A stretch of DNA of 47,336 nucleotides from an uncultured Porphyromonadaceae bacterium (lineage in GTDB: Bacteria > Bacteroidota > Bacteroidia > Bacteroidales > Barnesiellaceae_A): the NCBI GenBank assembly GCA_900542255.1, contig UQMR01000009.1, forward strand, positions 1-47,336, given 5' to 3'. Numbering within the stretch: position 1 is the first letter of the stretch; the number at the start of each line of letters is the position of its first letter. The notes under the pieces are model-generated. The model made no database searches. It was not told the origin of the DNA and saw only the letters and a program-made list of their open reading frames with translations. Both the position numbers and the translations under genes were made by a program. This document shows positions 3,301-39,062 of this stretch, in pieces.

Positions 3301-3364
3301 ATTGTTTATCATTGTTGTCTTGGGGTTCTTCGTATGCCGCCAAGCCTTTCCATGGGTTATACAT
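338..3364 (-). CDS. Membrane nSTAND NTPase with leucine-rich-like periplasmic region
   Basis: A 1008-residue protein. Residues 1-390 form a STAND-type NTPase: it opens with NPWKGLAAYEE, as nSTAND1 proteins do, and has a Walker A GRTGIGKTS (48-56), a Walker B VIVLDQFEE (146-154) and a sensor-like REDDLYRLE near 198-206. A membrane helix follows a basic stretch (about 398-418). Residues 420-906 carry short repeated segments with LRR character (CPSLEYLTI, CPNLRYIIF, CPSLKHINL). Three helices close the protein (about 907-926, 946-968, 978-1000). Basic residues before helix 1, between helices 2 and 3, and at the end put the NTPase inside and the repeats outside the inner membrane. STAND proteins are signal-triggered switches; here the repeats would sense and the NTPase would signal to the TIR protein whose stop overlaps this start by one base. 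The target and trigger are unknown. Base composition is AT-rich, suggesting transfer. Confidence 0.82.
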   Translation of the reverse strand: MYNPWKGLAAYEEPQDNNDKQYLFCGRDKATRELTYLIENQLCVTLYGRTGIGKTSLLQAGIFPRLRKNNYLPILVRLGIMPQENKQSAYAGYITQRIEEEIKRFNGEIKHNDRTKQETSPNATDYLWAYFATRRFFIQDKEVFPVIVLDQFEENFINHKEQVWLLLEQIYSLIDDNKLFPDGFHNETIFRLVISIREDDLYRLEDSIDILHLSELKSNRYRLTRLTEEEAQDIIIHPGSSCLPHDTAQRDEITKAIIAMVKKWNDGNINTLALSLSCSILYDKAADRNSKQPILNLNDIYETESNNPLTDFYATIISSLPQKERYFLEDNLVDENGRRNTVNSHVMDSNCPHWRNFLAGTYRILQENNDKVELVHDMLAKAIYEARLQREKKKQSRFLQIVGIFIVAIIFLLAILGTTFDITGKDPSRLPVFPTPKVVIDANDTMLTNYTAKEIIWNGNGELLLGICPSLEYLTITNNYNIIHTDVCPNLRYIIFENDSCTGGLSLHHCPSLKHINLPTGISFSQSLNGTTQIESVTFHNSDKYVKLDGILWNIKRKEIESLSTTRKNKREAYFPFEMRDDTYTIYQNDTIYNCGLWIDNLLFNKDTTYIISSHNPIDPVLDLTRYPKLRNFAYFDEFEPLTSEIFSYNTDITKIILNKNLGNLDILLSGLQKLDTIVIPASINKAIDLNIGKEITYIIDSTNTRLKKVNGIVYEDKKPVLLSAEYKNSYFITRSFNNIENDSTTIFLSKGYYCEFSDKHCNEYGIRPNINMKKLTNNKPNYYKYYQYNNATFIHFEKYRNHTYIYNNKKDIILPTFVKGLNCTHISPSTENIYILGYDPVYFINLNDSIKKNITLYTAFGVNHSQYATSKFHYGFKAIRELDLFTTIKLRLINTYNNTLLYFQEHPLVLTVFISCIFCILILFYKLNLKLHHKFIRKKRIYILHSIITSLTMTLIALFAWIASYWFIYNFSFGRNTIIATIIASLSTVCVWHGIYYNVLFQLKRTN

Positions 3365-24319: not shown

Positions 24320-24338
24320 ACGGTTTGTTTGCAAAGAA

Positions 24339-24360
24339 GCGGCACGGCTTGTTGTGCCGC
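24339..24360 (-). terminator. Hairpin between the transporter and the pectate lyase genes
   Basis: GCGGCAC (24339-24345) pairs with GTGCCGC (24354-24360); on the minus strand it is followed by TTCTTT. It probably weakens or partly ends read-through from the transporter gene. Confidence 0.5.
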
Positions 24361-24392
24361 ACCGCTTGCTCTATTGTGTAATAGAATGGTTA

Positions 24393-25835
24393 TTATTTTA
24401 CGATGATGGGTTTGTACTTGGGCACGAGGGCCTTCATGATGCTCCATGCGAACAGATAGGCAACGGCGCAGATGCAGAAGACAATCATGTATGCTCCGGG
24501 CTTGCCTTCCATGCCTAAGAACGAGAAAGCAGAACCCATCTTCTCGGCGTAGGTGAAGAGTTCGCCTGCTCCTAAGTTGATGAGCAGCGAGCCTATACCG
24601 CCGGCCATGGCTCCTATACCTGTAATGGTGGCAATGGTAGACTTGGGGAACATGTCGCCGATGGTGGAGAAGAGGTTGGCGCTCCATGCCTGGTGTCCGG
24701 CTCCGGCCAATCCGATGATGATGGCGGGGAACCATGCCGATGTTGCTCCCAGCGGTTGTGCAAAGAGTGCGAAGAGGGGGAAGAAGGCGAAGATGAGCAT
24801 GGCTCGCATGCGGCCTGCATAGGGCTCCATTCCTTTTTTCTCAACAAACAGCTTGGGCAGGTAACCGCCGTAGATAGAGAGGATGGTGACGATGAGATAG
24901 AGCACGAAGATGAGTGCCATTCCCATGGATGATGATGACTCGTAGCCGAATTGGTCGGAGAAGTATGCGGGTGCCCAGAAGAGGTAGAACCACCATACGC
25001 CGTCGGTGAAGAATTTACCTACTACGAAAGACCATGTCTGTTTGTATTTGAAGCATTGCAGGAAAGGTATCGTTTTTTCTGTTTTTGCGACGGTGCCATT
25101 CTCTGTCTCTTTGTCGTCTTGGTTTATGTAGGTGAGCTCGTTGGTGTTGACATATTTAGAGCGTTCGGGGCTGTCATAGAGGTATGCCCAGAAGAACATC
25201 CATACAAAACCTATTGCACCGATGATGATGAATGACATTTCCCAGCCGAAATGTTTGGCAAGGATAGGTATGGTGAGCGGGGCTGCCAATGCGCCTACCG
25301 AGGCTCCCGAGTTGAAAATAGAGGTGGCAAAGGCGCGGTCTTTTTTGGGGAAGTACTCGGCTGTCACCTTGATGGCTGCGGGGAAGTTTCCGGCTTCGCC
25401 CAATGCGAGTATGGCGCGGCATACGAGAAAGAGCCATACGCTCAGTGTCGCAATGGCTACTGCCATGGCGCTGCCGGCTTCTACGGCGCGTAATGCTGCG
25501 ACAGAGTCGAGGCCCTCGACTTTCATGGTTACCCAGCCGCAACCGGCATGGAGACATGCGCCTAACGACCAGATGAATATTGCCCAGATGTAGCCTTTCT
25601 TTATGCCCATCCAGTCGACAAACTTACCGGCAAAGAGGCAAGCTACGGCATAGAAAATAGAGAAGAAACCGGTAATCATACCGTAGTCGGCATCATTCCA
25701 GTGAAACTCGGGGGCAATAAAGTCTTTCCATGTGAGTGACAGTACCTGCCTGTCTAAGTAATTGACCGTGGTGGCAAAAAAGAGCATCATGCACATAATC
25801 CACCTGAAATTGGTCATTTTTTGTCCATTAGTCAT
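24393..25835 (-). CDS. exuT: MFS hexuronate transporter (ExuT-like)
   Basis: 480 residues with about 12 membrane helices in two halves. The opening FRWIMCMMLFFATTVNYLDRQVLS is the anion:cation symporter signature shared with ExuT, GudP and GarP, and LGEAGNFPAAIKVTAEYFPKKDRAFATSIFNSGASVGAL is the characteristic central stretch. It would bring galacturonate, glucuronate or the keturonates released by the pectin enzymes through the inner membrane. The gene lies before the PL1 lyase on the same strand and diverges from the GH105 gene, so the two arms are likely induced together. No local regulator is seen. ExuT is assigned by similarity; the exact hexuronate is unknown. Confidence 0.9.
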   Translation of the reverse strand: MTNGQKMTNFRWIMCMMLFFATTVNYLDRQVLSLTWKDFIAPEFHWNDADYGMITGFFSIFYAVACLFAGKFVDWMGIKKGYIWAIFIWSLGACLHAGCGWVTMKVEGLDSVAALRAVEAGSAMAVAIATLSVWLFLVCRAILALGEAGNFPAAIKVTAEYFPKKDRAFATSIFNSGASVGALAAPLTIPILAKHFGWEMSFIIIGAIGFVWMFFWAYLYDSPERSKYVNTNELTYINQDDKETENGTVAKTEKTIPFLQCFKYKQTWSFVVGKFFTDGVWWFYLFWAPAYFSDQFGYESSSSMGMALIFVLYLIVTILSIYGGYLPKLFVEKKGMEPYAGRMRAMLIFAFFPLFALFAQPLGATSAWFPAIIIGLAGAGHQAWSANLFSTIGDMFPKSTIATITGIGAMAGGIGSLLINLGAGELFTYAEKMGSAFSFLGMEGKPGAYMIVFCICAVAYLFAWSIMKALVPKYKPIIVK

Positions 25836-25889
25836 GATAGAAGATTTAATATAGTTGATTTGTTTTTATTCCTTTTTTCTTAGGCACGG

Positions 25890-25920
25890 CAAAAATAATA
25901 ACTATAATTTAATTATACAA
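25890..25920 (-). promoter_or_regulatory. Promoter of the transporter/PL1 arm
   Basis: The minus strand has TTG (25918-25920), a 20-base spacer and TATTTTTG (25890-25897), 55 bases before the transporter ATG. Confidence 0.55.
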
Positions 25921-25963
25921 GTAAAAAGAGGAGTGGGGATTGTGTTTTTCTGACTAATTTGTA

Positions 25964-25971
25964 TACTTTTG
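25964..25971 (+). promoter_or_regulatory. Promoter -7 box of the GH105/PL1/CE8 arm
   Basis: TACTTTTG, leaving a leader of about 75 bases before the GH105 ATG. Only about 65 bases separate the two divergent -7 boxes, so a shared regulator site here is likely. Confidence 0.55.
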
Positions 25972-26051
25972 CATGCGCATTTGTTCCTATTGGGGAAACT
26001 GATGCTTCGTTGCAACGCGAGAGAACTTAAATTATTAATACCATTTTTTCT

Positions 26052-27269
26052 ATGAGACAACTATCACAAATCGCTGTTTCTTTTCTGACAGCATCTTTGT
26101 TTTTATCGTGTCCTGTGGCTCTTACGGCGCAGACCGACGCCTCGGAATCGTGGGCTGTGCGTATGGTGGAGAGTGAGATGGCTCGCAACCCGGAGGCATG
26201 GCAGCTTGATTTTCAGCCCAAACTGAAATGGGATTATTGTCATGGCTTGGAGCTGAGGGCTTTCCTCTATGTAGCCGAGAAGTATGACCGCACCGATATT
26301 CGTGACTATGCTATCTCGTATGCCGATACGATGGTGAATGCCGACGGGACGATAAAGAAGTATAAGCTGACCGACTACTCGCTCGACCGCATCAACTCGG
26401 GCAAGTACCTGTTTGACGTTTATGACCTTACGGGTGAGGAGCGTTACAAGAAGGCGCTCGACTTGTTGCGCAGCCAGTTTGAGAACCAGCCGCGCAATGA
26501 AGACGGCGGCTTCTGGCACAAGAAGGTATATCCGCACCAGGTGTGGCTCGACGGCATCTATATGGGTTCGCCTTTCTTGGCAGAGTATGCGAGCCGTTAC
26601 GAAAGCGACCCGTTGCGCTCGGCCGACTATGCCGAGGTGATACGCCAGATTGTGATGGCTGCCCACCATACGTATGACTACGAGTCGCGCCTCTATAAGC
26701 ATGCTTGCGACGTGAGCCGCCAGATGTTCTGGTGTGACCCTGTGACCGGACAGTCGAAACATTGCTGGGGCCGTGCATTGGGCTGGTATGCTATGGCTAT
26801 TGTGGATAACCTCGAATTTATTCCCGCCGATTTTGAGGGCCGGAAGCAGGTGGTGGATATTTTACTCCATATTGCAGCCCAGCTCGAACGTTATGCCGAC
26901 CCGGAGACGGGTTTGTGGTACCAGGTGATGGACCGCAGCGGCGAGCCCGGCAACTACCTCGAATCGTCGGCTTCGTGCATGTTTGCCTATGCTTTGTATA
27001 AAGGGGTGCGCCTCGGGGTGCTTCCCGAGAAGTATATAGCTGTTGCCGATAAGGCTTGGCAGGGTATTCTCGACCGTTTTATCAAGGTGGACGAGAAGGG
27101 CCAGGTGCATATCACCGAGGTTTGTGCCGTGGCCGGACTGGGCGGTAAGGAGAAGCGCCCGGGCGACTATGACTATTATATTCACGAGAAAAAGCGTGAC
27201 AATGACGCAAAGGCCGTGGGCCCCTTTATTCTGACGGCTCTCGAAGTGGAGCGTTTGCAGGGAAAATGA
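26052..27269 (+). CDS. GH105 unsaturated (rhamno)galacturonyl hydrolase, exported
   Basis: 405 residues with a signal peptide (about 1-26, ending LTAQ). The fold is an (alpha/alpha)6 barrel, as shown by KWDYCHGLELRAFLYV, QVWLDGIYMGSPFLAEYA, HCWGRALGWYAMAIVDNLEF and the C-terminal KRDNDAKAVGPFILTALEVE, all typical of GH105 (YteR/YesR type). The family hydrates the delta-4,5 double bond left on oligosaccharides by pectin or rhamnogalacturonan lyases, releasing a keturonate that could then enter through the ExuT-like transporter. It is first in a run with the PL1 lyase (48 bases downstream) and the pectin methylesterase. Confidence 0.93.
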   Translation: MRQLSQIAVSFLTASLFLSCPVALTAQTDASESWAVRMVESEMARNPEAWQLDFQPKLKWDYCHGLELRAFLYVAEKYDRTDIRDYAISYADTMVNADGTIKKYKLTDYSLDRINSGKYLFDVYDLTGEERYKKALDLLRSQFENQPRNEDGGFWHKKVYPHQVWLDGIYMGSPFLAEYASRYESDPLRSADYAEVIRQIVMAAHHTYDYESRLYKHACDVSRQMFWCDPVTGQSKHCWGRALGWYAMAIVDNLEFIPADFEGRKQVVDILLHIAAQLERYADPETGLWYQVMDRSGEPGNYLESSASCMFAYALYKGVRLGVLPEKYIAVADKAWQGILDRFIKVDEKGQVHITEVCAVAGLGGKEKRPGDYDYYIHEKKRDNDAKAVGPFILTALEVERLQGK

Positions 27270-27316
27270 CGGCCCGATTCTTATTATATCAATAGTATAT
27301 GTTTAATTCTATCATT

Positions 27317-28762
27317 ATGAAAAGGAACTTTATAATTCTGTTTTGTGCCCTGTTTGCGTTTGCCGGCGCATGGGCGCAGGAGACACCTTCGTCGCAAGTG
27401 CCCGCTTTCCCCGGAGCCGAAGGTTATGGCAAATATACCGTAGGCGGCCGTGGCGGCAAAGTATATGTAGTGACAACACTCGAAGACTATGATAAAGGCG
27501 AGACGCCGATAGAGGGTTCGTTTCGTCGTGCCGTAGAAAAACGGGGCGCACGTACCATCGTTTTTGCCGTAGCCGGCAATATCATGCTGAAACGAATGCT
27601 CGATATTACCAAAGACAGTATTACGATTGCCGGGCAGACGGCTCCGGCTCCCGGTATATGTATAGGCGGACATCCTGTGCGCATCAAAGCGAGCCAGGTT
27701 ATAATCAGGTATGTGCGTTTCCGCATGAGCGACATCAACAAGGATGAGAATGATGCCTTGTCGAGTACGGCTTCTACGGAAAAGGGAATTTTCAACAATA
27801 TCATCGTGGACCACTGCTCTATCAGTTGGAGTACCGATGAGTGTGCTTCGTTTTACGGCAATGAGAACCTTACGTTCCAGTGGAATATCGTATCGGAGAG
27901 CCTGCGTCAAAGTGTCCACGTGAAAGGCTCGCACGGATACGGCGGTATATGGGGCGGTAAGGGGGCTTCTTACCATCACAATCTGCTGGCGCACCACGAC
28001 AGCCGCAATCCCCGCTTCGACCACCCGGGTGTAACCGATATTTCGGGTGTGATAGACTTCCGTAACAATGTGATTTATAATTGGGGCGCCAACAGCTCGT
28101 ATGGCGGTCAATGTCGCTCTATCAATATTGTCAATAACTACTACAAGCCGGGCCCTGCCACGACGAAGAGCAAACGGAACCGTATTTTTGCACCGGAGAT
28201 GCGTATCAATGATAAGGTGTATGGCTATGGCGAGTATTATGTAGACGGCAACTTTATGGTGGGCGATAAGAAGTGTACCCAAAACAACTGGGCGCGCGGT
28301 GTGCAACTGAGCAAAAAGACCGACGACCCGCTGGTGTTCAGCTACGATACGATACGCCTTAAAGAGCAGTTGCCTTATGCCGACCTGCCCTACACATCGG
28401 CCGAGGATGCTTATGAGCAAGTGCTTCTCAATGCCGGCGCCTCGCTCTATCGCGACCCCATAGATACACGTATCGTGGAGGAGGTGCGTGAGGGTAAGGC
28501 TACGTATGGTAACAAGGGCCTTATAGATACGCAAGAGCAGGTGGGCGGTTTCCCCGACCTGACGCAAACCGGTGTGTCGCCTGTGGATAGCGATGGCGAT
28601 GGCATGCCCGACGAGTGGGAGACGGCCAACGGCTTGAATCCGAACAAGAAGAATGATGCCAACAAATATACGCTCTCGAAGGAGTATACCAACATAGAGA
28701 TGTATATCAACTCGCTCGTTCCGGCCGAGGCGATGCAGATTGTACCTGCTAAAAAAAAATAA
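27317..28762 (+). CDS. Secreted PL1-family pectate lyase, 5' part of a PL1-CE8 fusion frame
   Basis: 481 residues as read, from ATG 27317, with a signal peptide ending AWAQ. The core is the PL1 beta-helix: VPAFPGAEGYGKYTVGGRGG, ITIAGQTAPAPGICIGGH, IIVDHCSISWSTDECASFYG, GYGGIWGGKGASYHHN, NNYYKPGPATTKS, with a calcium-type DSDGDGMPDEWE near the end. The frame stops at TAA 28760-28762 directly after a run of nine A (PAKKK-stop). The next open frame, one base back, continues at once with the conserved start of a pectin methylesterase. With one base slipped there, the product would be a PL1-CE8 enzyme of about 770 residues. Alone it is a complete lyase, and is similar to the one at 22607. Confidence 0.92.
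   Translation: MKRNFIILFCALFAFAGAWAQETPSSQVPAFPGAEGYGKYTVGGRGGKVYVVTTLEDYDKGETPIEGSFRRAVEKRGARTIVFAVAGNIMLKRMLDITKDSITIAGQTAPAPGICIGGHPVRIKASQVIIRYVRFRMSDINKDENDALSSTASTEKGIFNNIIVDHCSISWSTDECASFYGNENLTFQWNIVSESLRQSVHVKGSHGYGGIWGGKGASYHHNLLAHHDSRNPRFDHPGVTDISGVIDFRNNVIYNWGANSSYGGQCRSINIVNNYYKPGPATTKSKRNRIFAPEMRINDKVYGYGEYYVDGNFMVGDKKCTQNNWARGVQLSKKTDDPLVFSYDTIRLKEQLPYADLPYTSAEDAYEQVLLNAGASLYRDPIDTRIVEEVREGKATYGNKGLIDTQEQVGGFPDLTQTGVSPVDSDGDGMPDEWETANGLNPNKKNDANKYTLSKEYTNIEMYINSLVPAEAMQIVPAKKK
28751..28759 (+). repeat. Run of nine A at the PL1/CE8 junction
   Basis: Nine A followed by T. In the PL1 frame it reads AAA AAA AAA TAA; a -1 slip, or a tenth A, gives AAA AAA AAA ATA ATT and opens the methylesterase frame. 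Runs of this length are known sites of ribosomal -1 slippage, polymerase slippage and sequencing error. Confidence 0.8.
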
Positions 28763-29628
28763 TTACCATTGCCCCCGACGGTAGGGGCGACTATACAACG
28801 TTTTACGATGCCTTTGAGCATATACGTGCCTTTATGGATTATACGGTAACGGTGCGTGTGCTCAAAGGCATTTATCGTGAAAAGGTGCTTGTGCCGGCGT
28901 GGCTTACTCATGTGGAGATTGTGGGTGAAGACCCTGACAGTACCGTTATTACGTGGGACGATTATGCGGCCAAAGACAATATGACGACTTTCCGCACCTA
29001 CACGATGCGGATAGACGGTAACGACATCACGCTGCGCAACCTGACAATTGCCAATACGGCGGGACGGGTAGGACAGGCCGTGGCGTTGCATACCGAGGGC
29101 GACCGCATACGTATCGTAGGGTGTCGCCTGCTGGGTAACCAAGATACTTTTTATACCGGGGGCGAGGGGCGGCGGCTCTATGTGGAGGATTGTTATATAG
29201 AGGGTACGACCGACTATATTTTCGGTGCTGCCACGGTGTGGTTTGAGCGTTGCACGCTGCACAGCTTGTCGAATTCGTATATCACGGCGGCTTCTACCCC
29301 GGCTTCCATCCCTTATGGTTATGTCTTCAACCGCTGTACGCTGACGGCAGCCCAAGGGGTGACGAAGGTCTATCTGGGACGGCCGTGGCGACCGTATGCC
29401 TCGACTTTCTTTTTGCATTGTACGATGGGACGGCATATCCGCCCCCAGGGCTGGCATAACTGGCGTAACCCGGCTAACGAAAAGACGGCCCGGTATGGAG
29501 AGTATGCTACGGTGGGGTGTGATACCGATGGCCGTGTGAAGTGGGCACGGCAACTTTCGCCGGCCGAAGCCACGCAAATGACACCTTCGGCGATATTTGC
29601 CTATGGGGTGTCGTGGGTGATAGAATAG
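28753..29628 (+). CDS. CE8 pectin methylesterase, lacks its own usual start
   Basis: The frame is open from the stop at 28750-28752. The family start IITIAPDGRGDYTTFYDAF is encoded at 28759-28815, before any ATG, GTG or TTG; the first ATG is 28834, inside the domain. After it come all active-site elements of the beta-helix esterase: GNQDTFYTG (Gln, Asp), GTTDYIFGAATVWFE (second Asp) and VYLGRPWRPYAS (Arg, Trp). The enzyme removes methyl groups from pectin so that lyases can cut it. Having no start codon before the conserved domain, and no signal peptide, it makes sense only as the C-terminal half of a fusion with the lyase. If translated from 28834 it would stay in the cytoplasm and lack its first strand. 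Confidence 0.85.
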   Translation, partial: KKIITIAPDGRGDYTTFYDAFEHIRAFMDYTVTVRVLKGIYREKVLVPAWLTHVEIVGEDPDSTVITWDDYAAKDNMTTFRTYTMRIDGNDITLRNLTIANTAGRVGQAVALHTEGDRIRIVGCRLLGNQDTFYTGGEGRRLYVEDCYIEGTTDYIFGAATVWFERCTLHSLSNSYITAASTPASIPYGYVFNRCTLTAAQGVTKVYLGRPWRPYASTFFLHCTMGRHIRPQGWHNWRNPANEKTARYGEYATVGCDTDGRVKWARQLSPAEATQMTPSAIFAYGVSWVIE

Positions 29629-29682
29629 AGGTGTAGCGGATAGCGGCTGCACACGAAGGCCGGCAGATGGCGCAAAAACAAT

Positions 29683-29726
29683 GCGAGGCTGTGACAAGAT
29701 GTGGAATCTGTTGCAGCCTCGCTTTT
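29683..29726. terminator. Bidirectional terminator after the methylesterase
   Basis: GCGAGGCTG (29683-29691) pairs with CAGCCTCGC (29714-29722), followed by TTTT on the plus strand. On the minus strand it is followed by ATTGTTTTT, so it can end both the pectinase transcript and the convergent MBL transcript. Confidence 0.75.
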
Positions 29727-29757
29727 ACGATGGTAATGCTGTGGGTTTCGCTTTTTG

Positions 29758-30396
29758 TTACAGGAAGGGGTTGTGGCGCAGCTCGTCGCCGATGGTGGTC
29801 TCGGGACCGTGGCCGGGATATACTACGGTCTCGGGCGGCAGGGAGCATATTCCCTTGTGCAGTGACTCGATGAGTTGCTCGTAATTGCCTCCGATAAAGT
29901 CGGTGCGGCCTATGCTGCCGCAGAAGAGGGAGTCGCCGCTGCATACGAATCCCGACTCGGGTGCATAGAAGGCGATGCCGCCGGGCGAGTGTCCCGCAGC
30001 TCCTATGACTTGCAGCGGTTCGTCGCCGATATAGAGGGTGTCGCCGTCGGCAAGGTATCGGGTGATGGGGAGGATGTCGGCGGGTGGCGGTGTGCCGAAG
30101 GCAATGGCTTGTTGTTGCATCATGTCTAACAACGGCTTTTCGGCGGCATTGGCCTCGACCCCGACGTGGTATGTGCGTGCTACGAAGGGTGCGCCGTAGT
30201 AGTGGTCTATGTGCAGGTGTGTGAGCAGCAGATGCTTTACCGACAGACGATTGTCGGCGATGAAGCGGGAGAGTCTCTCTTGCTCGTCATCGGAGAGGCA
30301 GCCGGGGTCGATGATGGCGCATTGCAGGCTCTTTTTGTCCCATAGCACGTAGGTGAGTTCTTGAAACGGGTTGCATGTAAACCGTGTTATTTCCAT
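29758..30396 (-). CDS. MBL-fold metallohydrolase (glyoxalase II-like)
   Basis: 212 residues from ATG 30396 (MEITRFTCNPFQELTYVL); the frame is open further back within rsmG, without conserved sequence. The metal site is complete: THLHIDH (HxHxDH), AAGHSPGG, FVCSGDSLFCGSIGRTD with the bridging Asp, and VVYPGHGPET with the last His. It is closest in style to the short GloB-like hydrolases (YcbL group) that split thioesters such as S-lactoylglutathione, though in a bacterium that may lack glutathione the substrate is open. It follows rsmG by 17 bases and probably shares its mRNA. Confidence 0.92.
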   Translation of the reverse strand: MEITRFTCNPFQELTYVLWDKKSLQCAIIDPGCLSDDEQERLSRFIADNRLSVKHLLLTHLHIDHYYGAPFVARTYHVGVEANAAEKPLLDMMQQQAIAFGTPPPADILPITRYLADGDTLYIGDEPLQVIGAAGHSPGGIAFYAPESGFVCSGDSLFCGSIGRTDFIGGNYEQLIESLHKGICSLPPETVVYPGHGPETTIGDELRHNPFL

Positions 30397-30413
30397 CTTG
30401 TCGTTGTGTGGGG

Positions 30414-31037
30414 TTATATCTGTACGTAGACTACTTTCTTGGTCGCGAAGAAGGGCTCGGTGAAGTATTTTTTCAGCTCTACTTCTATACCTCGTTTTTG
30501 CAGGCGATGCATTTCGTGTTGCAGGTCGCCTCCTTTCAGGTATAGCAAGCCGTTGGGCAGGGCATTGTGGTGGTTGTCCGATATGTTTTTCCGTACCAGT
30601 TTGATGATGTCTTGCAGGGGCATCACGCCGCGGCTTACGGCAAAGTCGCACTTCATTTTCTCCTCTTCGATGCTGCACTGGCGCAAGGTGACGTTATCGA
30701 GCCCTATCGCTTTTGCAATTTCGGTGGCAACCATGATTTTTTTCCCGGTGCGGTCTATCAGATGAAAATGGCATTGCGGGAACATGATGGCGAGCGGTAT
30801 GCCGGGAAATCCGCCTCCCGTACCGACGTCGATGATGGATGTGCCGTCGGCAAAGTTCAGGGCGCATGTTATGCCCAGGGAGTGGAGTATATGGTGCTCG
30901 TAGAGGTTGTCTATGTCTTTGCGTGAGATGATGTTTATCTTGGCGTTCCACTCGGGATAGAGTGTGCCCAGAGCTGTGTATTGTTGTTTTTGCAGCTCGG
31001 TGAGGTGTGGAAAGTATTTTTCTATGAGTTCTATCAT
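30414..31037 (-). CDS. rsmG: 16S rRNA (guanine-527 N7) methyltransferase RsmG
   Basis: 207 residues, standard length. RsmG methylates G527 of 16S rRNA using SAM. Seen are the N-terminal YPEWNAKINIISRKDIDNLYEHHILHSLGI, the SAM-binding DVGTGGGFPGIPLAIMFP and the later DFAVSRGVMPL. The ATG overlaps the stop of the DUF3298 lipoprotein gene by four bases (ATGA), so translation is likely coupled; the MBL hydrolase follows. Confidence 0.96.
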   Translation of the reverse strand: MIELIEKYFPHLTELQKQQYTALGTLYPEWNAKINIISRKDIDNLYEHHILHSLGITCALNFADGTSIIDVGTGGGFPGIPLAIMFPQCHFHLIDRTGKKIMVATEIAKAIGLDNVTLRQCSIEEEKMKCDFAVSRGVMPLQDIIKLVRKNISDNHHNALPNGLLYLKGGDLQHEMHRLQKRGIEVELKKYFTEPFFATKKVVYVQI

Positions 31038-31885
31038 TTTGTTTGGATGTTAAGCATGCAGGATATGGGACTGTTCTCGGGGATGTAATAGCTTATGTCG
31101 CTGTATGACAGTGTGATGGATGTTTCGCCCAAGGCGTAGCAACCTATCTCGTAGGGGTTGTATACCCAAGTGACTCCCTTGTCGTTGATGTAGAAGTTTT
31201 CGGTGGCGGTGATGTTCTCGGGGTCGAAGTAGCCTACATCTATCAGCGCTTTGCTGTTTTTAAGGTCGAGGTTTTTTACGAGGGTGTTTATGAGCATTTG
31301 GTGTACGCTGTCGGTGTATTCGGGGGCTATGATGTCGCAAAGTGTTATGCGGCTCATCGTGGGTAGGTATATTACGTAGTAGAAGCTGTTGTTTATTCCG
31401 TGTGCCCCGCCCTCGTATGAGTAGCTGCTGGAATTGTAGGAGAGGAAGTTGCCGTTGTTGTAGACAGGCATTATCTGTGTGAGGGAGGTGAATGTAATCT
31501 CGGAGGTGAGCTCTATTTCGTTGCATAGTGTTGTGAGTCCCTCTTTCATTTCGTTCAGCGTGCTCTGTGCGGCGCTGTCGGCGGCCTCTTTCAAGGAGGT
31601 GTATCGGCTGTATTCTGGGCCGAATATTTGGGAGGCCAGCAGTGAGTTGAGCCGGGCAAGGTCGCTTTCCGATTGGTATGCTATGGGATAATCCAGAGAT
31701 AGCTTCACTTCGCATTTCTTCTTGGGGTCATCGGGGAGTTGATAGGAGAGTTCTATGAGTGTACGGTCGGTACGCACGCTGTCGGTTGCCATATTGTCTC
31801 CTTCGTTGGAGCCCTTTTTAGAGGAGCATGCAACGATTGTTGCACAGAGACAGAGTCCTGTAATAAGTAGTGCAGAATGTTTCAT
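31034..31885 (-). CDS. DUF3298-domain lipoprotein
   Basis: 283 residues. The signal peptide ends in a lipobox-type sequence (TIVAC, Cys20) followed by SSKKGS, so it is a lipoprotein. The middle region (SYSYEGGAHGINNSFYYVIYLP) carries the GGAHG motif of the DUF3298/DUF4163 module, which is found in RsiV-like anti-sigma factors and in many Bacteroidetes lipoproteins. In RsiV that module binds lysozyme; no such binding can be inferred here. No cytoplasmic anti-sigma domain is present. It heads the run with rsmG and the MBL hydrolase. Confidence 0.85.
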   Translation of the reverse strand: MKHSALLITGLCLCATIVACSSKKGSNEGDNMATDSVRTDRTLIELSYQLPDDPKKKCEVKLSLDYPIAYQSESDLARLNSLLASQIFGPEYSRYTSLKEAADSAAQSTLNEMKEGLTTLCNEIELTSEITFTSLTQIMPVYNNGNFLSYNSSSYSYEGGAHGINNSFYYVIYLPTMSRITLCDIIAPEYTDSVHQMLINTLVKNLDLKNSKALIDVGYFDPENITATENFYINDKGVTWVYNPYEIGCYALGETSITLSYSDISYYIPENSPISCMLNIQTK

Positions 31886-31954
31886 AGTGGAGGGTTTATG
31901 AATAGATGTTTTTGTCGCGTTGTCGTTTCTGTATGATGGCGGATGTGTGACGGC

Positions 31955-33073
31955 TTACATGTTGTCGAATCCGGTGAATGGTACGCCCATGCGTTCTGCC
32001 CAGTCGGGGTACTCTTTCAGTACTTTCAGTGGTTGGCGGCCATACCATCCGTATCCGATGCGCCGCTCGTATTCGACGTCGGCCATGCGCCATACTTTCT
32101 CGCCCGAGCGGCGGCAGAAGAAGGGTTGGTTGGTTTCCAGGTCGTAGTAGCGTGCCCATATCGGGCGGCGGCTCGACGGGTCTTCTATGACAACCCTGTC
32201 GTAGATGTTTCGGCCTGTGACGGAGTCGGTGCCGATAACGACTTTTTCTACCTTGATGCCTTCGATGCGGTTGTTCCATAACCATTTTACGCCGCAGGTG
32301 ATGGCCTCTTTCACTTCCTGTCTCGGGTTGTCGATGCTCATGAGCATCAGTAATATTTGGCTGCTCTCGGGTGCGCTCAGGCCGGGTAGTTCGTACGACC
32401 GGGCTTTGACCGGTTTGTAGGTTTCATTGTCGTGTTGTTGTGCCCATATTGTTTTTACACCGTTTTGCGTGACCTGGCATCGCAGGATGACGTCGATGCC
32501 TTTGTGGTAGGCTGCTGCGATGCGGTTGATGCAGTCGCGACTCAGCCATTTGAAGAGCGGGTCGCCTTGCACGACGTCGCACAGGAATTGCATGACGTTG
32601 GTGGTCACATCGTCGTTGAAGGTGATGGCATCGGCGTCCCATCCGCGCCATCCTCCGTTCTCTTTCTGGGTGTCGAGGATATAGTCGATGCCCCGCTCGG
32701 CCGACCGGCGGTATTTCTCGTTGCCGGTTCGGGCATATACATCGGCAAGGTAGGTGACCTGGGGTATGATGTTGCGGTTGTCTATGGTGCTTCGCCGATG
32801 CTTGGGTGCGAGGGCGGCAATGACGGAGTCGGGGTTGAGTTTCGACAGGTAGTCGATGTTTTTCATCCAGCCTCCGTCTTCGTTTTGGTATGCTACCATG
32901 TTGTCGGCAATCTCGATGAAATCGTTCTCGCTCCAACGGGGATAGCTTCCTTCGGGATGTTTCATTTGCCAATGATTGATGCCGTCCTGGAAGTATTTGA
33001 GCGAGGGCGGTTCTTGTCCGTATGATGTCGTAAGGAGTGCTATACTCCATATTGTCAGTAATATGCGTTTCAT
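31955..33073 (-). CDS. PL10-family pectate lyase, exported
   Basis: 372 residues from ATG 33073 (MKRILLTIWSIALLTTSYGQ, a signal peptide). The fold is an (alpha/alpha)3 barrel; family elements include WSENDFIEIADNMVAYQNEDGGWMKNIDY, the repeated QKENGGWRGWDADAITFNDDVT with acidic residues that bind calcium, and WARYYDLETNQPFFCRRSGEKVW with the catalytic Arg region. PL10 enzymes cut polygalacturonate by beta-elimination, as the two PL1 enzymes do, but with an unrelated fold. It stands alone with its own promoter, 2.3 kb from the CE8 gene, and belongs functionally to the pectin set. Confidence 0.92.
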   Translation of the reverse strand: MKRILLTIWSIALLTTSYGQEPPSLKYFQDGINHWQMKHPEGSYPRWSENDFIEIADNMVAYQNEDGGWMKNIDYLSKLNPDSVIAALAPKHRRSTIDNRNIIPQVTYLADVYARTGNEKYRRSAERGIDYILDTQKENGGWRGWDADAITFNDDVTTNVMQFLCDVVQGDPLFKWLSRDCINRIAAAYHKGIDVILRCQVTQNGVKTIWAQQHDNETYKPVKARSYELPGLSAPESSQILLMLMSIDNPRQEVKEAITCGVKWLWNNRIEGIKVEKVVIGTDSVTGRNIYDRVVIEDPSSRRPIWARYYDLETNQPFFCRRSGEKVWRMADVEYERRIGYGWYGRQPLKVLKEYPDWAERMGVPFTGFDNM

Positions 33074-33096
33074 CTGACGAGCGATTTTATATGCCT

Positions 33097-33128
33097 CAAA
33101 AATATTTATAATACGGCGAAAAAGCAAA
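33097..33128 (-). promoter_or_regulatory. Promoter of the PL10 gene
   Basis: The minus strand has TTTG (33125-33128), a 20-base spacer and TATTTTTG (33097-33104). This is an almost ideal match, placed 24 bases before the ATG. Confidence 0.65.
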
Positions 33129-35540: not shown

Positions 35541-35750
35541 GTAGGATTAAGTATGAGGGTGTGGTTGCCAGGTGCTGATGTGTTCGAAAAGCACAAGAAA
35601 AAGGGTTTACCCTGTTGTGAAACGAAAGGATAGGAGCCTCATGTTTGTGGTGTAAGGAATATGATAAGAGAAAGCATTCTCCCATTATATAGCAAGCCTC
35701 ATACTTGTATGTAATGACATGAGGCGGTGTTGTCGGTAGATTGTTTGTAG
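35541..35750. other. Spacer with a hairpin at the end of the peptide locus
   Basis: No gene is seen. GCCTCAT (35696-35702) pairs with ATGAGGC (35719-35725), 26 bases beyond the stop of the MauE-thioredoxin gene, and may end that minus-strand transcript. Another copy of GCCTCAT lies near 35637. Confidence 0.4.
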
Positions 35751-36665
35751 TTACTGTGTGAGGGAAGAACTTTTGTATTTTAATTCTTCGAGTAATGTAT
35801 AAGGAGAAATCAATGTTCCTATTATTACTTCTTTGATGGTATCATTGTCTATATAGAATGATGTTGGCATGGCAGATATGAAATCTATACTGTCCCGATG
35901 GATTTCAGTTGCTTTTATTTGAGGGAAATAGTTTGTAAATCTATTTCGACTTGTTGTATATTCTTTTGAGGATGGGGACACAAGGACGTATGCGGCAGTT
36001 GTATCGACAATCGTACTGGAAGAGAATGCTTCTAAATGTGCTAATGAATTCCAACAGTGGGGGCAGTCGTAAGAGAAGAAAAAAATAAGTTGTTTCTTTT
36101 TATTTTGTATTGTGTAGTTTCCCAGAGGGGATTTTTTTATGGCGACGTTTACCAGCGGATGTTTATTTGTGTTGAATGCATACGGACGATATGTCATGCC
36201 TGCTATAAATAATGATGGCAATAGAACGGTTGCAAATATAATACGTTTCCATAAAGGGAATGATATAGTATGGTGTTCGGTAAGGAAGATAACAGATGCC
36301 ATGCAGATGAGAATTGCATTGCGTATATAAGTAAGTGTCGGTGATGTATCAGCGAAGTCGAATTGACCAAAACAGCCACATTCCGAGATATTGTTATTGT
36401 ATTGGGCGTAAGCGAATGTGAAGCTAAAAATTATCAGCAAAAGAATTGTAGCAAGACTTGTCCATTTACGCATTACTCCTAATACAAGGAGGGTACCTAA
36501 AACAATTTCTGCTATGACAATAGCAGGCGCAAGGTAATGTAAGGTGGGGAATCCGTATTGAATTATGAGATATTGAAATGCAGCAATGTTATAGAGTTTT
36601 CCTATACCCGAAATGATGAATACGATGCCTAAGATGCTCCCCAAAATATTTCGCATGTGATACAT
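35751..36665 (-). CDS. MauE/DoxX-like membrane protein fused to a thioredoxin domain with CPHC
   Basis: 304 residues. The first 160 residues hold about five helices of the MauE/DoxX type (about 7-28, 43-64, 70-87, 113-131, 140-158) with Cys96 and Cys98 in ECGCFG on a loop. The rest is a thioredoxin-fold domain on the outer side: IFFFSYDCPHCWNSL with CPHC at 201-204, the DsbA-type active site, and MPTSF (Pro267) as cis-proline loop. MauE supports disulfide formation in methylamine dehydrogenase, so a fusion with a DsbA-like domain suggests a self-contained membrane disulfide system in which the loop cysteines relay electrons. It is the last gene of the locus, directly after the six-cysteine peptide, which I take as its likely substrate (inference). 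AT-rich composition. Confidence 0.82.
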   Translation of the reverse strand: MYHMRNILGSILGIVFIISGIGKLYNIAAFQYLIIQYGFPTLHYLAPAIVIAEIVLGTLLVLGVMRKWTSLATILLLIIFSFTFAYAQYNNNISECGCFGQFDFADTSPTLTYIRNAILICMASVIFLTEHHTISFPLWKRIIFATVLLPSLFIAGMTYRPYAFNTNKHPLVNVAIKKSPLGNYTIQNKKKQLIFFFSYDCPHCWNSLAHLEAFSSSTIVDTTAAYVLVSPSSKEYTTSRNRFTNYFPQIKATEIHRDSIDFISAMPTSFYIDNDTIKEVIIGTLISPYTLLEELKYKSSSLTQ

Positions 36666-36686
36666 AATAATAGAGATTTATTATAA

Positions 36687-36719
36687 AGAAGTGCTCCCCT
36701 TGAAGAGGAAAGCACTTCT
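36687..36719 (-). terminator. Hairpin between the peptide gene and the MauE-thioredoxin gene
   Basis: AGAAGTGCT (36687-36695) pairs with AGCACTTCT (36711-36719). It lies 14 bases after the peptide stop. It can act as a partial terminator or a 3' stabiliser, making more peptide than enzyme mRNA, as seen in many peptide operons. Confidence 0.55.
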
Positions 36720-36732
36720 ATGCACATTCATT

Positions 36733-36996
36733 TCATTTGCAGAAACACGCATATGTGTCGCTTCCTGTACAGAAATCACTGTAACCACGTTCTTTACAAG
36801 TGTTATAACAGTCAGATGAGTTCCCAACATATGTGTACCCTAATGCGCCGCATGTACCACCTTGTACTCCGGCCCTTATTAAAGATTGAGTTTCGGAAGA
36901 TGTACTTGATTTGGAACTTCCGGCTGCTAATAAGATGAATGCTGTTAAGATAATAGCTTGAGAAAATCCGATTAACAAAATTTTTTTCTTTTCCAT
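36733..36996 (-). CDS. Six-cysteine secreted peptide precursor, defensin-like (CS-alpha-beta) spacing
   Basis: 87 residues from ATG 36996. A signal peptide or anchor (MEKKKILLIGFSQAIILTAF and on) is followed by a Ser/Thr-rich propeptide and SLIRAGVQGG, which also looks like a double-glycine cleavage site. The last 40 residues start TCGALGYTYVG and have six cysteines at 2, 16, 20, 29, 37 and 39: C-x13-C-x3-C-x8-C-x7-C-x1-C. This is the CS-alpha-beta pattern of invertebrate and plant defensins, with CYNTCKERGYSDFC similar to the CxxxCxxRG helix of insect defensins. Charge is near neutral to slightly acidic. I infer a disulfide-stabilised secreted peptide; antibacterial, signalling or structural roles are all possible. 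A NVEALA-like or other Bacteroidales peptide family is the alternative. It overlaps the end of the membrane protein frame upstream. Confidence 0.7.
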   Translation of the reverse strand: MEKKKILLIGFSQAIILTAFILLAAGSSKSSTSSETQSLIRAGVQGGTCGALGYTYVGNSSDCYNTCKERGYSDFCTGSDTYACFCK

Positions 36997-37371
36997 AATA
37001 TTACAATTATAAATACTAACAGATAAAATATAATGTCGTATATATCGTATGTGCCCGGTACGATGGATTGCTTGTAAAATCTCCATGATGAAAGGCAAGG
37101 CTACAGAACACCACCAAAGAATGCGGGTCGGCATAATGCTGTGATGATAGAATTGTATTTGCAATAACAAAAGAGATAGATACCACAGGGCATCGGGCAG
37201 ACTGTATATGAAAACATAAAACAATATGTTGTTTCCATACTTAGGTTGGAATGATAAATGTCCTAAACCTATTAAATCTATTGCCCATATGTTGCTTCGG
37301 CATGTTATGTATATTAGTATACCAATGCCTAGGGATATAGCTGCAATTAATAAGTCTTTATTAGGTGACAT
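36733..37371 (-). CDS. Membrane protein frame running into the peptide, with an apparent frameshift
   Basis: As read, a single 212-codon frame joins a membrane protein (1-125) to the peptide (126-212). I think this is not the native layout. Residues 1-103 have several hydrophobic helices and the stretch YSLPDALWYLSLLL followed by EILQ, which I recall from a family of small Bacteroidetes membrane proteins whose next part reads about PGTFDxxDxxFY. That part exists here one base over, from about 37059 to 36972: VPGTYDIYDIIFYLLVFIIV, ending LWKRKKFC-stop. So a one-base shift at about 37055-37070 breaks the gene. In the restored version it would end at 36972 and overlap the peptide start by 25 bases. 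The function is unknown; immunity or export help are guesses. Its start overlaps the previous stop by one base (TAATG). Confidence 0.6.
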   Translation of the reverse strand: MSPNKDLLIAAISLGIGILIYITCRSNIWAIDLIGLGHLSFQPKYGNNILFYVFIYSLPDALWYLSLLLLQIQFYHHSIMPTRILWWCSVALPFIMEILQAIHRTGHIRYIRHYILSVSIYNCNIMEKKKILLIGFSQAIILTAFILLAAGSSKSSTSSETQSLIRAGVQGGTCGALGYTYVGNSSDCYNTCKERGYSDFCTGSDTYACFCK

Positions 37372-37793
37372 TAATTACATGCAGGTCCAGATACAGTGAT
37401 TGAGGTGTTTATTATGTCTCTGGAATATGATATGGGTATTGTGAATGTAATCTCTTTTGAAGAATATTCGTCTATTCTTTCGGTTACGTTGCTATCGAAT
37501 ATGACGTATTCTTGTGCTTGGTTTGATGTCCTTGCCGTTTTTGCAGAGTTTCTTGTTCTCACATTTCTTGTCGGTGCAAAAGAAAGAGTGATTTTTACAT
37601 GTAATGAAACCAAGGGAACAGAGCTTCCGTTAGAGATTATGAAACTTGATATGTCTCCGGCTTGTGCTGTCGTAGGCGGATTGAAAGTTACTTCTACATA
37701 ACCTCCGTTTTTTGTAGAACGGCTCGTATTTTCTGCGTAGGATTGTGTCGTGAAGCAGAACAAAGCTAATAATATAAGATATATTTTTGCCAT
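37371..37793 (-). CDS. Small secreted protein, probable beta-sandwich, function unknown
   Basis: 140 residues from ATG 37793; the frame is open two codons earlier from a GTG, which I reject. A signal peptide ends at about TQSYA. The mature part alternates polar and hydrophobic residues as in an Ig-like or fimbrial beta-sandwich (GGYVEVTFNPPTTAQAGD, PLVSLHVKITLSF, KEITFTIPIS, TSITVSG) and ends in Cys-Asn with a single cysteine. I do not recognise the family. The stop overlaps the next start by one base, so it is made together with the membrane protein and, through it, the peptide; it could be a carrier, a chaperone or a surface partner. Confidence 0.65.
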   Translation of the reverse strand: MAKIYLILLALFCFTTQSYAENTSRSTKNGGYVEVTFNPPTTAQAGDISSFIISNGSSVPLVSLHVKITLSFAPTRNVRTRNSAKTARTSNQAQEYVIFDSNVTERIDEYSSKEITFTIPISYSRDIINTSITVSGPACN

Positions 37794-37834
37794 AATCACC
37801 GTGTTGTTTGTATTGTTGGATTTTATTGTTTTTG

Positions 37835-37868
37835 GAACTGTGACTAAAATTGCATTTAGTCACAGTTC
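37835..37868. repeat. Perfect 14-bp palindromic hairpin upstream of the peptide operon
   Basis: A 14-base stem at 37835-37848 (GAACTGTGACTAAA) pairs perfectly with 37855-37868 around a six-base loop. It lies 42 bases before the ATG at 37793. No T-run follows on the minus strand, so an operator or mRNA leader element fits better than a terminator. A second, distant inverted pair AAGTAGTATGA/TCATACTACTT lies at 37872-37882 and 37957-37967. Confidence 0.6.
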
Positions 37869-38011
37869 TATAAGTAGTATGAGAGTGTTTCTGTTGTGCG
37901 GATAGTATGTGGATAGATTCGATATAAAATCTTGGGCAACATTCCAGATGTACTCATCATACTACTTTGTAGGTAAATAAGATACTGTTTGGTATCGGAA
38001 TATAAGAGCGA

Positions 38012-38326
38012 TTAATCGAAGTAGAATCTACCATCGGCAACATATCTGTATGCACCTCTTTTATCATCGGTATTTCCGTAGTACGGGTTGTCGCGTACGG
38101 GATAGGTTTCATTATCTACGGTGAGGGTATTGGATTCTTTATCGTATGTAGCAGAAACATGTCTTACTATGAACATTTTACCTCTTTTCTTTATTTCATA
38201 AACAGTGACGTCTCTACTATATGCCGATACCGAAATTTCACTATTGATACTGAATGAACTGGCATATAAATATGGTGTTATAGCAGATAGTGTACACAGA
38301 ACTATGCAATAAATTGTTTTTTTCAT
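38012..38326 (-). CDS. Small secreted protein, function unknown
   Basis: 104 residues with a signal peptide ending at about YLYASS. The mature part is about 80 residues, rich in Tyr and charged residues, with beta-like stretches (ISVSAYSRDVTVYEIKKRG, MFIVRHVSATYD, NTLTVDNETYPV) and an aromatic end (AYRYVADGRFYFD). It has no cysteine in the mature part. I do not recognise it. Position, size and composition are like the 98-residue gene upstream (36 bases away), so the two are probably cotranscribed; a spacer of 218 bases with the 14-bp hairpin separates them from the peptide genes. Confidence 0.6.
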   Translation of the reverse strand: MKKTIYCIVLCTLSAITPYLYASSFSINSEISVSAYSRDVTVYEIKKRGKMFIVRHVSATYDKESNTLTVDNETYPVRDNPYYGNTDDKRGAYRYVADGRFYFD

Positions 38327-38362
38327 TTTTGTAATATTTATGAATGGTGTGTAATTATGTTT

Positions 38363-38659
38363 TTAATCGCATTTTTGAAGCATGCGTGCTCCCAATTTTA
38401 AGTAAGTTATGCCGTTTTGCTCGTACCATTTACCTTTGTGTATTACTCCGTTTTCATCGGAGAAAGTAAAGGTTCCGTCTTTTTCTTCTGAGACAATCGA
38501 GAATGAGCCGGCACTATAGAGGCCGATATATAAAGTGATTCGTTGCCCAGACACTATTACATACGATTCATCTTCTGCGCAATATTTTCCAGACGGTATT
38601 GCCCAAATGAATATTTGGAAAGAAAAGAGGAGTGTAAGAACGATAATAAATTTCTTCAT
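38363..38659 (-). CDS. Small secreted protein with two cysteines, function unknown
   Basis: 98 residues from ATG 38659 (MKKFIIVLTLLFSFQIFIWA, signal peptide). The mature part starts IPSGKYCAEDESYVIVSG and runs as short beta-strand pairs (ITLYIGLYSAGSFSIVSEE, GTFTFSDENGVIHKGKWYEQ) with KCD at the end; its two cysteines may form one disulfide. It looks like a small lipocalin- or META-like beta domain, without a firm match. It is first in the minus-strand run after the long palindrome. A longer frame to 38740 lies over leader sequence and is rejected. Confidence 0.6.
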   Translation of the reverse strand: MKKFIIVLTLLFSFQIFIWAIPSGKYCAEDESYVIVSGQRITLYIGLYSAGSFSIVSEEKDGTFTFSDENGVIHKGKWYEQNGITYLKLGARMLQKCD

Positions 38660-38764
38660 GGTCGTATTATTAATAAATTTACTATTAGTTGTGTTTTTTT
38701 GAATATAGAGGAGTGCCTTGTCATGAGCATACGCACACAAAAAAGCGCGGCACTTTTAGTTATA

Positions 38765-38891
38765 TTTCTCTGACATGGTGTTTGGCGTAACCCGAGAAGT
38801 AGATATAACAAAAAGCCCACGCTATGCGCAGGCATTTTAATTGTATATCTTTACTTCTCTTTGTTAAGTCGCCAAACTTTAGTCAGAGAAA
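38765..38891 (-). repeat. 127-nt nested palindrome with terminator-like core
   Basis: Arms pair in order: TTTCTCTGAC with GTCAGAGAAA at the ends (38765-38774/38882-38891), GTTTGGCG with CGCCAAAC (38780-38787/38870-38877), GAGAAGTA-GATATA with TATATC-TACTTCTC (38794-38807/38844-38859, one or two bases bulged), and the core GCCCACGC with GCGCAGGC (38815-38822/38826-38833). On the minus strand the core pairs fully with two G-U pairs and is followed by CTTTTTG, as in an intrinsic terminator. No coding frame lies in it. It may be a regulatory leader or a MITE-like element; no flanking target duplication is evident. Confidence 0.75.
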
Positions 38892-38984
38892 GACTCAATT
38901 AAAACGCTTTTCCAATATGTCTTATAGTGTGCGTACTATTATACGCTATTTATTCATAGGCAAAAATATTTAAAATTCATACAG

Positions 38985-38992
38985 CAAAGATA
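38985..38992 (-). promoter_or_regulatory. Promoter -7 box upstream of the palindrome
   Basis: The minus strand reads TATCTTTG. Transcription from here would carry the palindrome in a leader of about 320 bases before the 98-residue gene. The rest of 38660-39062 holds no gene; a small AAAG..CTTTTTT hairpin lies near 38734-38755. Confidence 0.5.
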
Positions 38993-39062
38993 TATAAATA
39001 ATGTCGTGTACAAGAATTGATGAGATAAAAATATTATAAAATTCTTTCGTTTTCTTGATTTT

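Follow-up and report, generated by a model that had tools for sequence, protein, structure and literature searches.

The question whether a Bacteroidales genome can encode a defensin is raised by a small gene (36733..36996, minus strand) in a 47,336-nucleotide stretch of DNA from an uncultured, gut-type Porphyromonadaceae bacterium (assembly GCA_900542255.1, contig UQMR01000009.1), hereafter called the window. The gene runs from an ATG start at 36996 to a TGA stop at 36733 and encodes a precursor of 87 residues, P0001, with six cysteines at residues 49, 63, 67, 76, 84 and 86. The original prediction, made from the sequence alone, described it as a defensin-like peptide with the layout of the cysteine-stabilised alpha-beta (CS-alpha-beta) fold, a pattern that insect and plant defensins also have; the spacing given there, C-x13-C-x3-C-x8-C-x7-C-x1-C, agrees exactly with the cysteine positions in the frame, and the near-neutral charge was also found (2 K, 1 R, 3 D and 1 E in residues 49-87; net charge -1). 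The idea of a free-standing defensin gene was not supported. P0001 forms one cysteine-rich branch in a family that mostly lacks cysteines, with a gene for a VanZ-like protein beside it in the window and beside the relative in genome G112. We see about an even chance that the Bacteroidota independently invented the CS-alpha-beta architecture, from a cysteine-free beta-alpha-beta-beta domain that gained the cysteine pair C2-C5, then C3-C6, then C1-C4, with cysteines gained at least twice and with living intermediates that carry none, two, four or six of them.

A CS-alpha-beta-type pattern, as defined in this analysis, was found once when all six frames of the window were read, compared with 0.03 per copy in 60 second-order Markov copies of it; a looser pattern also occurred once (0.13 per Markov copy). 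Genome-wide, such a cysteine pattern would be expected by chance now and then, and because the pattern alone can arise in this way, the real proof of P0001 is its homology to P0003, P0004, P0073, P0006 and P0005. A search with P0001 alone gave the near-copies P0003 (89% identical) and P0004 (86%), whereas the distant relatives P0073, P0006 and P0005 showed 29-44% identity; aligned relatives as a whole were 25-89% identical. Genome search located the cysteine-free P0005 in G112 and, in G073, a relative that has four of the six cysteines; G197 contained one further member, and profile searches gave 15 and then 79 proteins (the latter from 7986 scored candidates), with source names that include Muribaculaceae bacterium and Bacteroides sp.

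The family was compared in an alignment of 74 rows, made from 81 proteins by dropping eight that were near-duplicate, fragmentary, extended or divergent (P0002, P0030, P0034, P0036, P0059, P0079, P0080 and P0081) and adding one (L022m); a 70-row alignment (A4) and a 57-row alignment (A5) were subsets picked by the analyst.

Cysteine pairs and predicted fold

None of the six cysteines was present in 67 of the 74 rows, two rows had C2+C5, one had C2+C3+C5+C6 and four had all six (P0001, P0003, P0004 and P0073, each in the order C..CxxxC..C..CxC). C2 and C5 occurred in the same seven rows, C3 and C6 in the same five, and C1 and C4 in the same four; no row was discordant for any of the three pairs, neither among the 74 rows nor among the 70 that remained after removing four near-copies. 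In each of three contrasts, namely P0078 versus P0077, P0006 versus P0073, and L022m versus P0006, the two rows differ at the six columns by a single pair. P0078 has exactly C2+C5 in its domain and its sister P0077 has neither, which gives C2-C5; addition in P0006 gives C3-C6, and further addition in P0073 and P0001 gives C1-C4. By this subtraction the connectivity would therefore be that of the CS-alpha-beta fold, in keeping with the layout first proposed, and the disulfides of P0001 are inferred to be C49-C76, C63-C84 and C67-C86.

Rows without these cysteines mostly contain Ala at the first three columns (56 rows at C1, 65 at C2 and 63 at C3, of 74) and Ile, Leu or Val at C4 (57), Val at C5 (63) and Ala or Gly at C6 (69), that is, small or hydrophobic residues as expected of a small core. 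The domain is entirely cysteine-free in 60 of the 74 rows. Cysteines outside the six columns were found singly at 75 (P0067 and P0069) and 56 (P0057 and P0066), as an additional third cysteine at 72 in L022m, and at both 64 (helix) and 75 (strand) in P0031, P0037 and P0040 (P0001 numbering), where the two are perhaps another independently gained disulfide.

The domain of P0001 (residues 49-87; 36736..36852, minus strand) was predicted by AlphaFold2 (AF2) as beta-alpha-beta-beta, with a strand at 55-59, a helix at 63-69 and strands at 75-77 and 83-86 (predicted local distance difference test, pLDDT, 80-88 by blocks of ten). In this predicted fold the helix carries C2 and C3 and the last strand C5 and C6, as the CS-alpha-beta layout would have it. 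AF2 of the cysteine-free P0005, with 57 rows without a domain cysteine, gave an identical order of elements (pLDDT 87-94). The fold may thus need no cysteines, most relatives having none, and the three disulfides would lock the P0001 branch into the CS-alpha-beta architecture. The top 15 Foldseek matches of the P0001 model were defensins or scorpion toxins, and each of the 30 matches listed by VIA had a title that names a defensin, a scorpion toxin or a cystine-dense peptide; scores were weak in both searches. At the level of sequence, a profile of five cysteine-rich members gave 10 matches among PDB sequences at E up to 10, and all 10 were defensins, drosomycin being counted among them.

These data also bear on the explanation that the resemblance is shallow, P0001 being a generic beta-alpha-beta-beta domain that collected cysteines and forms other disulfides or none. 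The single cysteines at columns 56 and 75, the third cysteine of L022m and the weakness of all scores would agree with this, as would the additional matches of the cysteine-free model to RRM, YebC and FMRP fragments. A haphazard collection of cysteines is hard to reconcile with the lack of any discordant row and with three contrasts that each differ by exactly one pair, and the leading structural neighbours of the six-cysteine model are CS-alpha-beta proteins; we regard this explanation as the least probable of those considered here.

An IQ-TREE analysis of 82 columns, from which the six cysteine positions were left out, gave an unrooted tree of poor resolution, in which 24 of 71 inner branches were open and the bootstrap had not settled. 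The presence of any of the six cysteines requires at least three changes on this tree, and two are required for the six-cysteine rows. P0078 groups with the cysteine-free P0077 inside a large, mostly cysteine-free group (98/94); the remaining cysteine-bearing rows fall in a group of 15 rows that also contains nine cysteine-free ones, with P0006 and L022m as long branches of unsure placement. Since the tree is unrooted, gain and loss of cysteines are inseparable on it, and it is from the numbers of rows and from a predicted fold that does not need cysteines that we infer a cysteine-free ancestor of the family. The relatives with six, four, two or no cysteines suggest a route to a defensin-type fold one disulfide at a time, and a family predicted to fold without cysteines makes the order of the disulfides, the gain in stability per bond and the origin of the fold without defensin descent testable.

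Comparison with known defensins

Whether cis-defensins of animals, plants, fungi and bacteria arose once or repeatedly is an open question in the field. The best defensin matches of the family by sequence, which were also among the best by fold, were heliomicin and ARD1 (PDB 1i2u, 1ozz and 1p00), with E-values that were not significant. They share with P0001 the CxxxC followed by C..CxC, the 7-residue gap between C4 and C5 and, in alignments, a CK[ER]RGY-like end of the helix; they differ in having GHC before C4 where P0001 has DFC, and the hydrophobic N-terminal segment and the operon partners are features of the P0001 side. The sequence at C4 is DFC in P0001, DYC in P0003 and P0004 and SYC in P0073, so that none shows the GXC ascribed to every bacterial cis-defensin of PMC11561630 and, in PMC6989792, to the homologues of actifensin. 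Actifensin and actinodefensin of Actinomyces (NF038042) are likewise bacterial six-cysteine CS-alpha-beta peptides and gave a weak match to P0003 (E 0.011). Actifensin operons are reported in PMC6989792 to contain an ABC transporter and the genes afnB-I, whereas the window has VanZ-like and MauE-thioredoxin genes and no GXC. The spacing for C6 defensins quoted in the same source is C-X5-12-C-X3-C-X9-10-C-X4-5-C-X-C; the gaps of P0001 are 13, 3, 8, 7 and 1, of which three (13, 8 and 7) lie outside the quoted range.

All curated cut-offs were missed, at 16.3 of 65 bits for NF038042 (P0003) and at 13.6 of 25.1 for PF00304 and 10.1 of 20.4 for PF01097 (both P0073), and P0001 itself had no match to these three profiles at E up to 1. 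Membership of the defensin family was thus not supported: P0001 has no GXC core, departs from the C6 spacing quoted and stays below the profile cut-offs. We do not file it as a defensin family member, although it looks like a defensin in its pattern, inferred disulfides and predicted fold. Strong profile matches to a known unrelated family such as NVEALA had been named as a point that would count against the prediction; neither NVEALA (E up to 1) nor another known family gave such a match with P0001 in Pfam or NCBIfam. Matches to known families were weak throughout, with best E-values of 0.0014 in Pfam (70 members) and 0.011 in NCBIfam (15 members) and, for P0001 alone, 0.14 in PHROGs and 0.08 in PADLOC. 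A SPOR domain, matched by one of 70 members (E 0.048), was rejected.

The likeness to ARD1 and heliomicin could mean that P0001 is a true cis-defensin acquired from another lineage, whose cysteine pairs were lost stepwise in the relatives. These two insect defensins are the best PDB sequence matches, P0073 weakly matched Gamma-thionin, Defensin_2 and Toxin_3, and the actinodefensin match of P0003 points the same way. Such an origin appears distinctly unlikely to us, given that no defensin-profile match was significant, that GXC is absent, that 67 of 74 members have none of the six cysteines and that the rows with cysteines do not come out as a single group, albeit on an unrooted, poorly resolved tree.

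PMC11561630 sorts 74 bacterial cis-defensins, which come from Proteobacteria, Acidobacteria and Actinobacteria, into five classes, with N-terminal tails in classes II-IV, and reports no antimicrobial activity for the one class II peptide assayed. That set has the CS-alpha-beta core in common with P0001 and differs in having GXC throughout; the string Bacteroid does not occur in the main text of the paper, and its available passages contain no cysteine-free relatives. Bacterial cis-defensins are described from Actinobacteria, Proteobacteria and Acidobacteria in PMC11561630, PMC6989792 and PMC8819291, and the abstract of the first argues for a prokaryotic origin of cis-defensins. Dash and colleagues are cited in PMC11561630 for such peptides in many bacterial phyla, which may include a Bacteroidota case. 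Among the titles and opening parts of abstracts listed in literature searches, no defensin from Bacteroidota and no cysteine-free family with a defensin fold appeared. Judged from sequence, our results would place CS-alpha-beta-type proteins in the Bacteroidota, probably membrane-tethered beside a VanZ-like protein, unlike the setting of free antimicrobials.

Leader, partner genes and a possible role

Residues 1-28 of P0001 (36913..36996, minus strand) form a hydrophobic N-terminal segment that ends in LLAAGSS and was predicted by AF2 as a helix at 2-26; by eye it resembles the start of proteins encoded behind other VanZ-like genes. It would lead to export by the Sec route, with the domain held at the membrane or released from it. 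The processing site proposed at a Gly-Gly (GG) was not supported: GG is present at residues 46-47 of P0001 and in 19 of the 74 aligned rows; among the seven rows with cysteines at the six positions it occurs in P0001, P0003 and P0004 only, and P0073 and P0006 are without it. A lipobox-like start was found in P0078, P0077 and L022m, and the sequence LTTSC was seen by eye in P0006. Lipoboxes were called from letter patterns and charges from residue counts; leader likenesses and signal-like starts were judged by eye.

The end of a small membrane-protein gene (36972..37371, minus strand; end read by hand) overlaps the start of the peptide gene. Its product, with the motif SLPDALWY, is presumably VanZ-like, a label that we base on motifs seen by eye, as no profile names the protein; LPDxLWY and GTxD motifs appear, again by eye, to be common to it and to VanZ/DUF2809-type membrane proteins. 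DUF2809 was the sole match of the corresponding protein of L005 (E 0.014, below cut-off), and the L023 protein had none. The VanZ-like relatives match the window in two frames (37368-37063, then 37061-36984) that meet near 37062, whereas the genes of L005 (1677-2093) and L023 (1103-1525) read in a single frame; the change of frame in the window may be either a mutation or a sequencing error. The frame of P0001 continues upstream without a stop into the membrane-protein frame, forming an open reading frame (ORF) of 212 amino acids. A fused 212-amino-acid protein was rejected and is not a likely product of the locus, as the two genes overlap but stay distinct in relatives and the C-terminus of the VanZ-like protein is read in a different frame.

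VanZ-like genes precede the genes of P0001, P0005 and a G212 protein. When 295 genomes of the order were searched with a profile built from three VanZ-like proteins, 14 matched, and frames were inspected at 13 of these 14 loci. At seven of the 13, an overlapping gene encodes a product that by eye begins like P0001, with both a hydrophobic segment and a brief run of Ala, Gly and Ser. These seven include the G112 relative; in the remaining six the C-terminal parts are different by eye, namely a CxxCxGxG end (L031), a 467-residue protein (L033), a similar pair (L034 and L037) and another two. The case of L036 is doubtful, and five loci are without such an overlapping gene. Behind the VanZ-like gene of L023, at 1495-1794, a P0001-like leader is joined to a CxxCxGxG-type end and not to a defensin-like domain. 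Because leader and VanZ-like protein stay constant while the C-terminal domain changes, the VanZ-like protein would handle the leader and would not confer immunity.

Downstream of the peptide gene, by 67 bases, lies a gene (35751..36665, minus strand) for a protein with a MauE-type membrane domain (PF07291, 7.5e-24) and a C-terminal thioredoxin-like part (Thioredoxin_2, E 0.17, below cut-off), in which ECGCFG and CPHC motifs were seen by eye. It is predicted to be a thiol oxidoreductase; an exact-word scan of genome contigs gave no relative and a PDB search no match at E up to 1. The four-cysteine gene is followed by one for a thioredoxin-fold protein (PF13098, 27.5 bits against a cut-off of 27), and a gene for a thiol-type enzyme thus adjoins both the six-cysteine and the four-cysteine gene, while tblastn with both enzymes gave no relative on the 12 kb around the cysteine-free P0005. 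This association rests on four loci, too few for a statistic. Between the peptide and MauE genes is a hairpin (36687..36719, minus strand; 14 bp with a 5-base loop, -20.5 kcal/mol, z -3.8), followed by a T-rich stretch.

Taken as a whole, we interpret P0001 as an exported, probably envelope-tethered, disulfide-locked mini-domain with a VanZ-like partner and a MauE-thioredoxin oxidase, acting as a binding or inhibiting module, and this interpretation carries in our judgement about half of the probability. The islet would be transcribed, and the hairpin may act as an attenuator, so that more peptide than enzyme is made. The overlapping VanZ-like protein would be a dedicated membrane partner acting on the leader, as the overlap and the exchange of cargo suggest, its frame being broken here; from its neighbourhood, the MauE-thioredoxin protein may make or repair the disulfides 49-76, 63-84 and 67-86. 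Outside the cytoplasm the locked domain might bind or inhibit, the likeliest target being a partner on the envelope or outside. L022m has cysteines, yet tblastn found no relative of either thiol enzyme on its 5-kb contig, which speaks against a strict link between cysteines and enzyme (the contig is also without a VanZ-like gene). The 15-row profile gave no defensin among its 7 PDB matches, contrary to a defensin reading for the whole family.

The main rival is a secreted defensin-like bacteriocin, cut before residue 48 into a 39-40-residue peptide that kills neighbours, with the VanZ-like protein as immunity protein and the MauE-thioredoxin protein as oxidase. It would account for the actifensin-like CS-alpha-beta pattern, for an AT-rich islet that is absent from a relative, for a small membrane gene that overlaps the peptide gene and for a hairpin that may yield more peptide than enzyme. 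The family of the YxzE-like putative bacteriocin (PF25184) was also weakly matched: with E up to 0.05, 3 of 70 members had a match, the best at 0.0014, and P0001 had one at E 0.0038, over residues 9-80 with the leader included, although the score of P0001 was 18.7 bits against a cut-off of 40. A net charge of -1, the presence of GG in so few rows, a lipobox-like start that would keep some relatives membrane-bound and a VanZ-like partner that stays constant while the cargo changes, unlike an immunity gene, make this explanation unlikely.

The islet, database searches and the rest of the window

The genes described above lie in an islet (35544..39053) of 34-38% G+C in surroundings of 46-58%. The nearest relative by exact-word contig scan was L001, a metagenome-assembled genome labelled uncultured Barnesiella sp. 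(antiporter 93% and GuaA 98.8% identical), in which the flanking genes are about 0.2 kb apart, with other sequence between them, and the peptide locus is absent; of the three loci found by an antiporter scan, L002 and L003 were more distant than L001. Because L001 is without the locus and the islet differs in G+C from its surroundings, the locus would so be a gained or differentially lost islet. All genes assigned to it share one orientation: three small proteins with signal-like starts, the VanZ-like gene, the peptide gene with its hairpin and the MauE gene. The small protein directly upstream (37371..37799, minus strand) was matched by nothing in Pfam or NCBIfam at E up to 1, and by eye such proteins likewise adjoin the relatives L022, L006 and L023; the two others, with no family assigned, lie at 38012..38326 (minus strand; no Pfam match, one NCBIfam match far under cut-off) and 38363..38740 (minus strand; a single Pfam match under cut-off and none in NCBIfam). 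A phage or plasmid origin was rejected, as plasmids gave no match for window 35700-38800 or P0021, phages none for P0001, and viral_contigs none for P0001, P0073, P0042 or P0021. No tRNA or Rfam match was found at the islet, and no exact direct repeat at both its ends among the repeats listed.

Further members were sought in genome samples, which overlap between searches. With P0001 alone (E up to 0.05), 14 of 393 genomes of the order sample matched: L005 and L006 were accepted as members, nine matches were rejected on translation and L008 from the ORF list, and L015 and L016 sit within frames of more than 800 amino acids, left unread. The 70-row profile matched 6 of 295 genomes, comprising the members in G112, G073 and G197, the leader only in G212, and L024 and L025, also unread; the families of G112, G197 and G073 (2/9, 1/2 and 1/2 genomes matched) gave nothing new. 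None of nine genomes in the family of G001 matched, and in the class sample 3 of 395 did (E 3.5e-5 to 6.3e-5), by partial matches within frames of 407-1362 amino acids that were discounted unread. The five-row profile matched none of 395 genomes in the phylum sample, an empty answer that, with no positive control, shows nothing by itself.

The search with P0001 alone had also given P0002 (92 amino acids), a database cluster in which the window peptide is extended by five residues (WNECA), as would follow from reading TGA as Trp; this is probably a gene-caller artefact. We keep to the standard genetic code, as is usual for Bacteroidales. TGA is the stop of the peptide gene and of one other among 15 frames; the absence of internal TGA from these frames is circular, as they had been cut at TGA.

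Several gene labels, VanZ-like, MgtC and methylglyoxal synthase among them, are our assumptions by eye. Elsewhere in the window, a protein matching AriAB (PADLOC, 5.4e-111), presumably a PARIS-type defence, is encoded at 15053-16624 (minus strand). At 338-4659 (minus strand), a protein of 431 amino acids whose C-terminal part is TIR-like (PADLOC PDC-S66, 1.9e-10; Aga_TIR models, 2.2e-9) lies beside a protein of 1008 amino acids that is NTPase-like by eye and had no PADLOC match, and the two are perhaps a defence locus. Frames that by eye resemble polysaccharide lyases, an esterase and a glycosidase were found at 22607-33127, perhaps a region for pectin utilisation.
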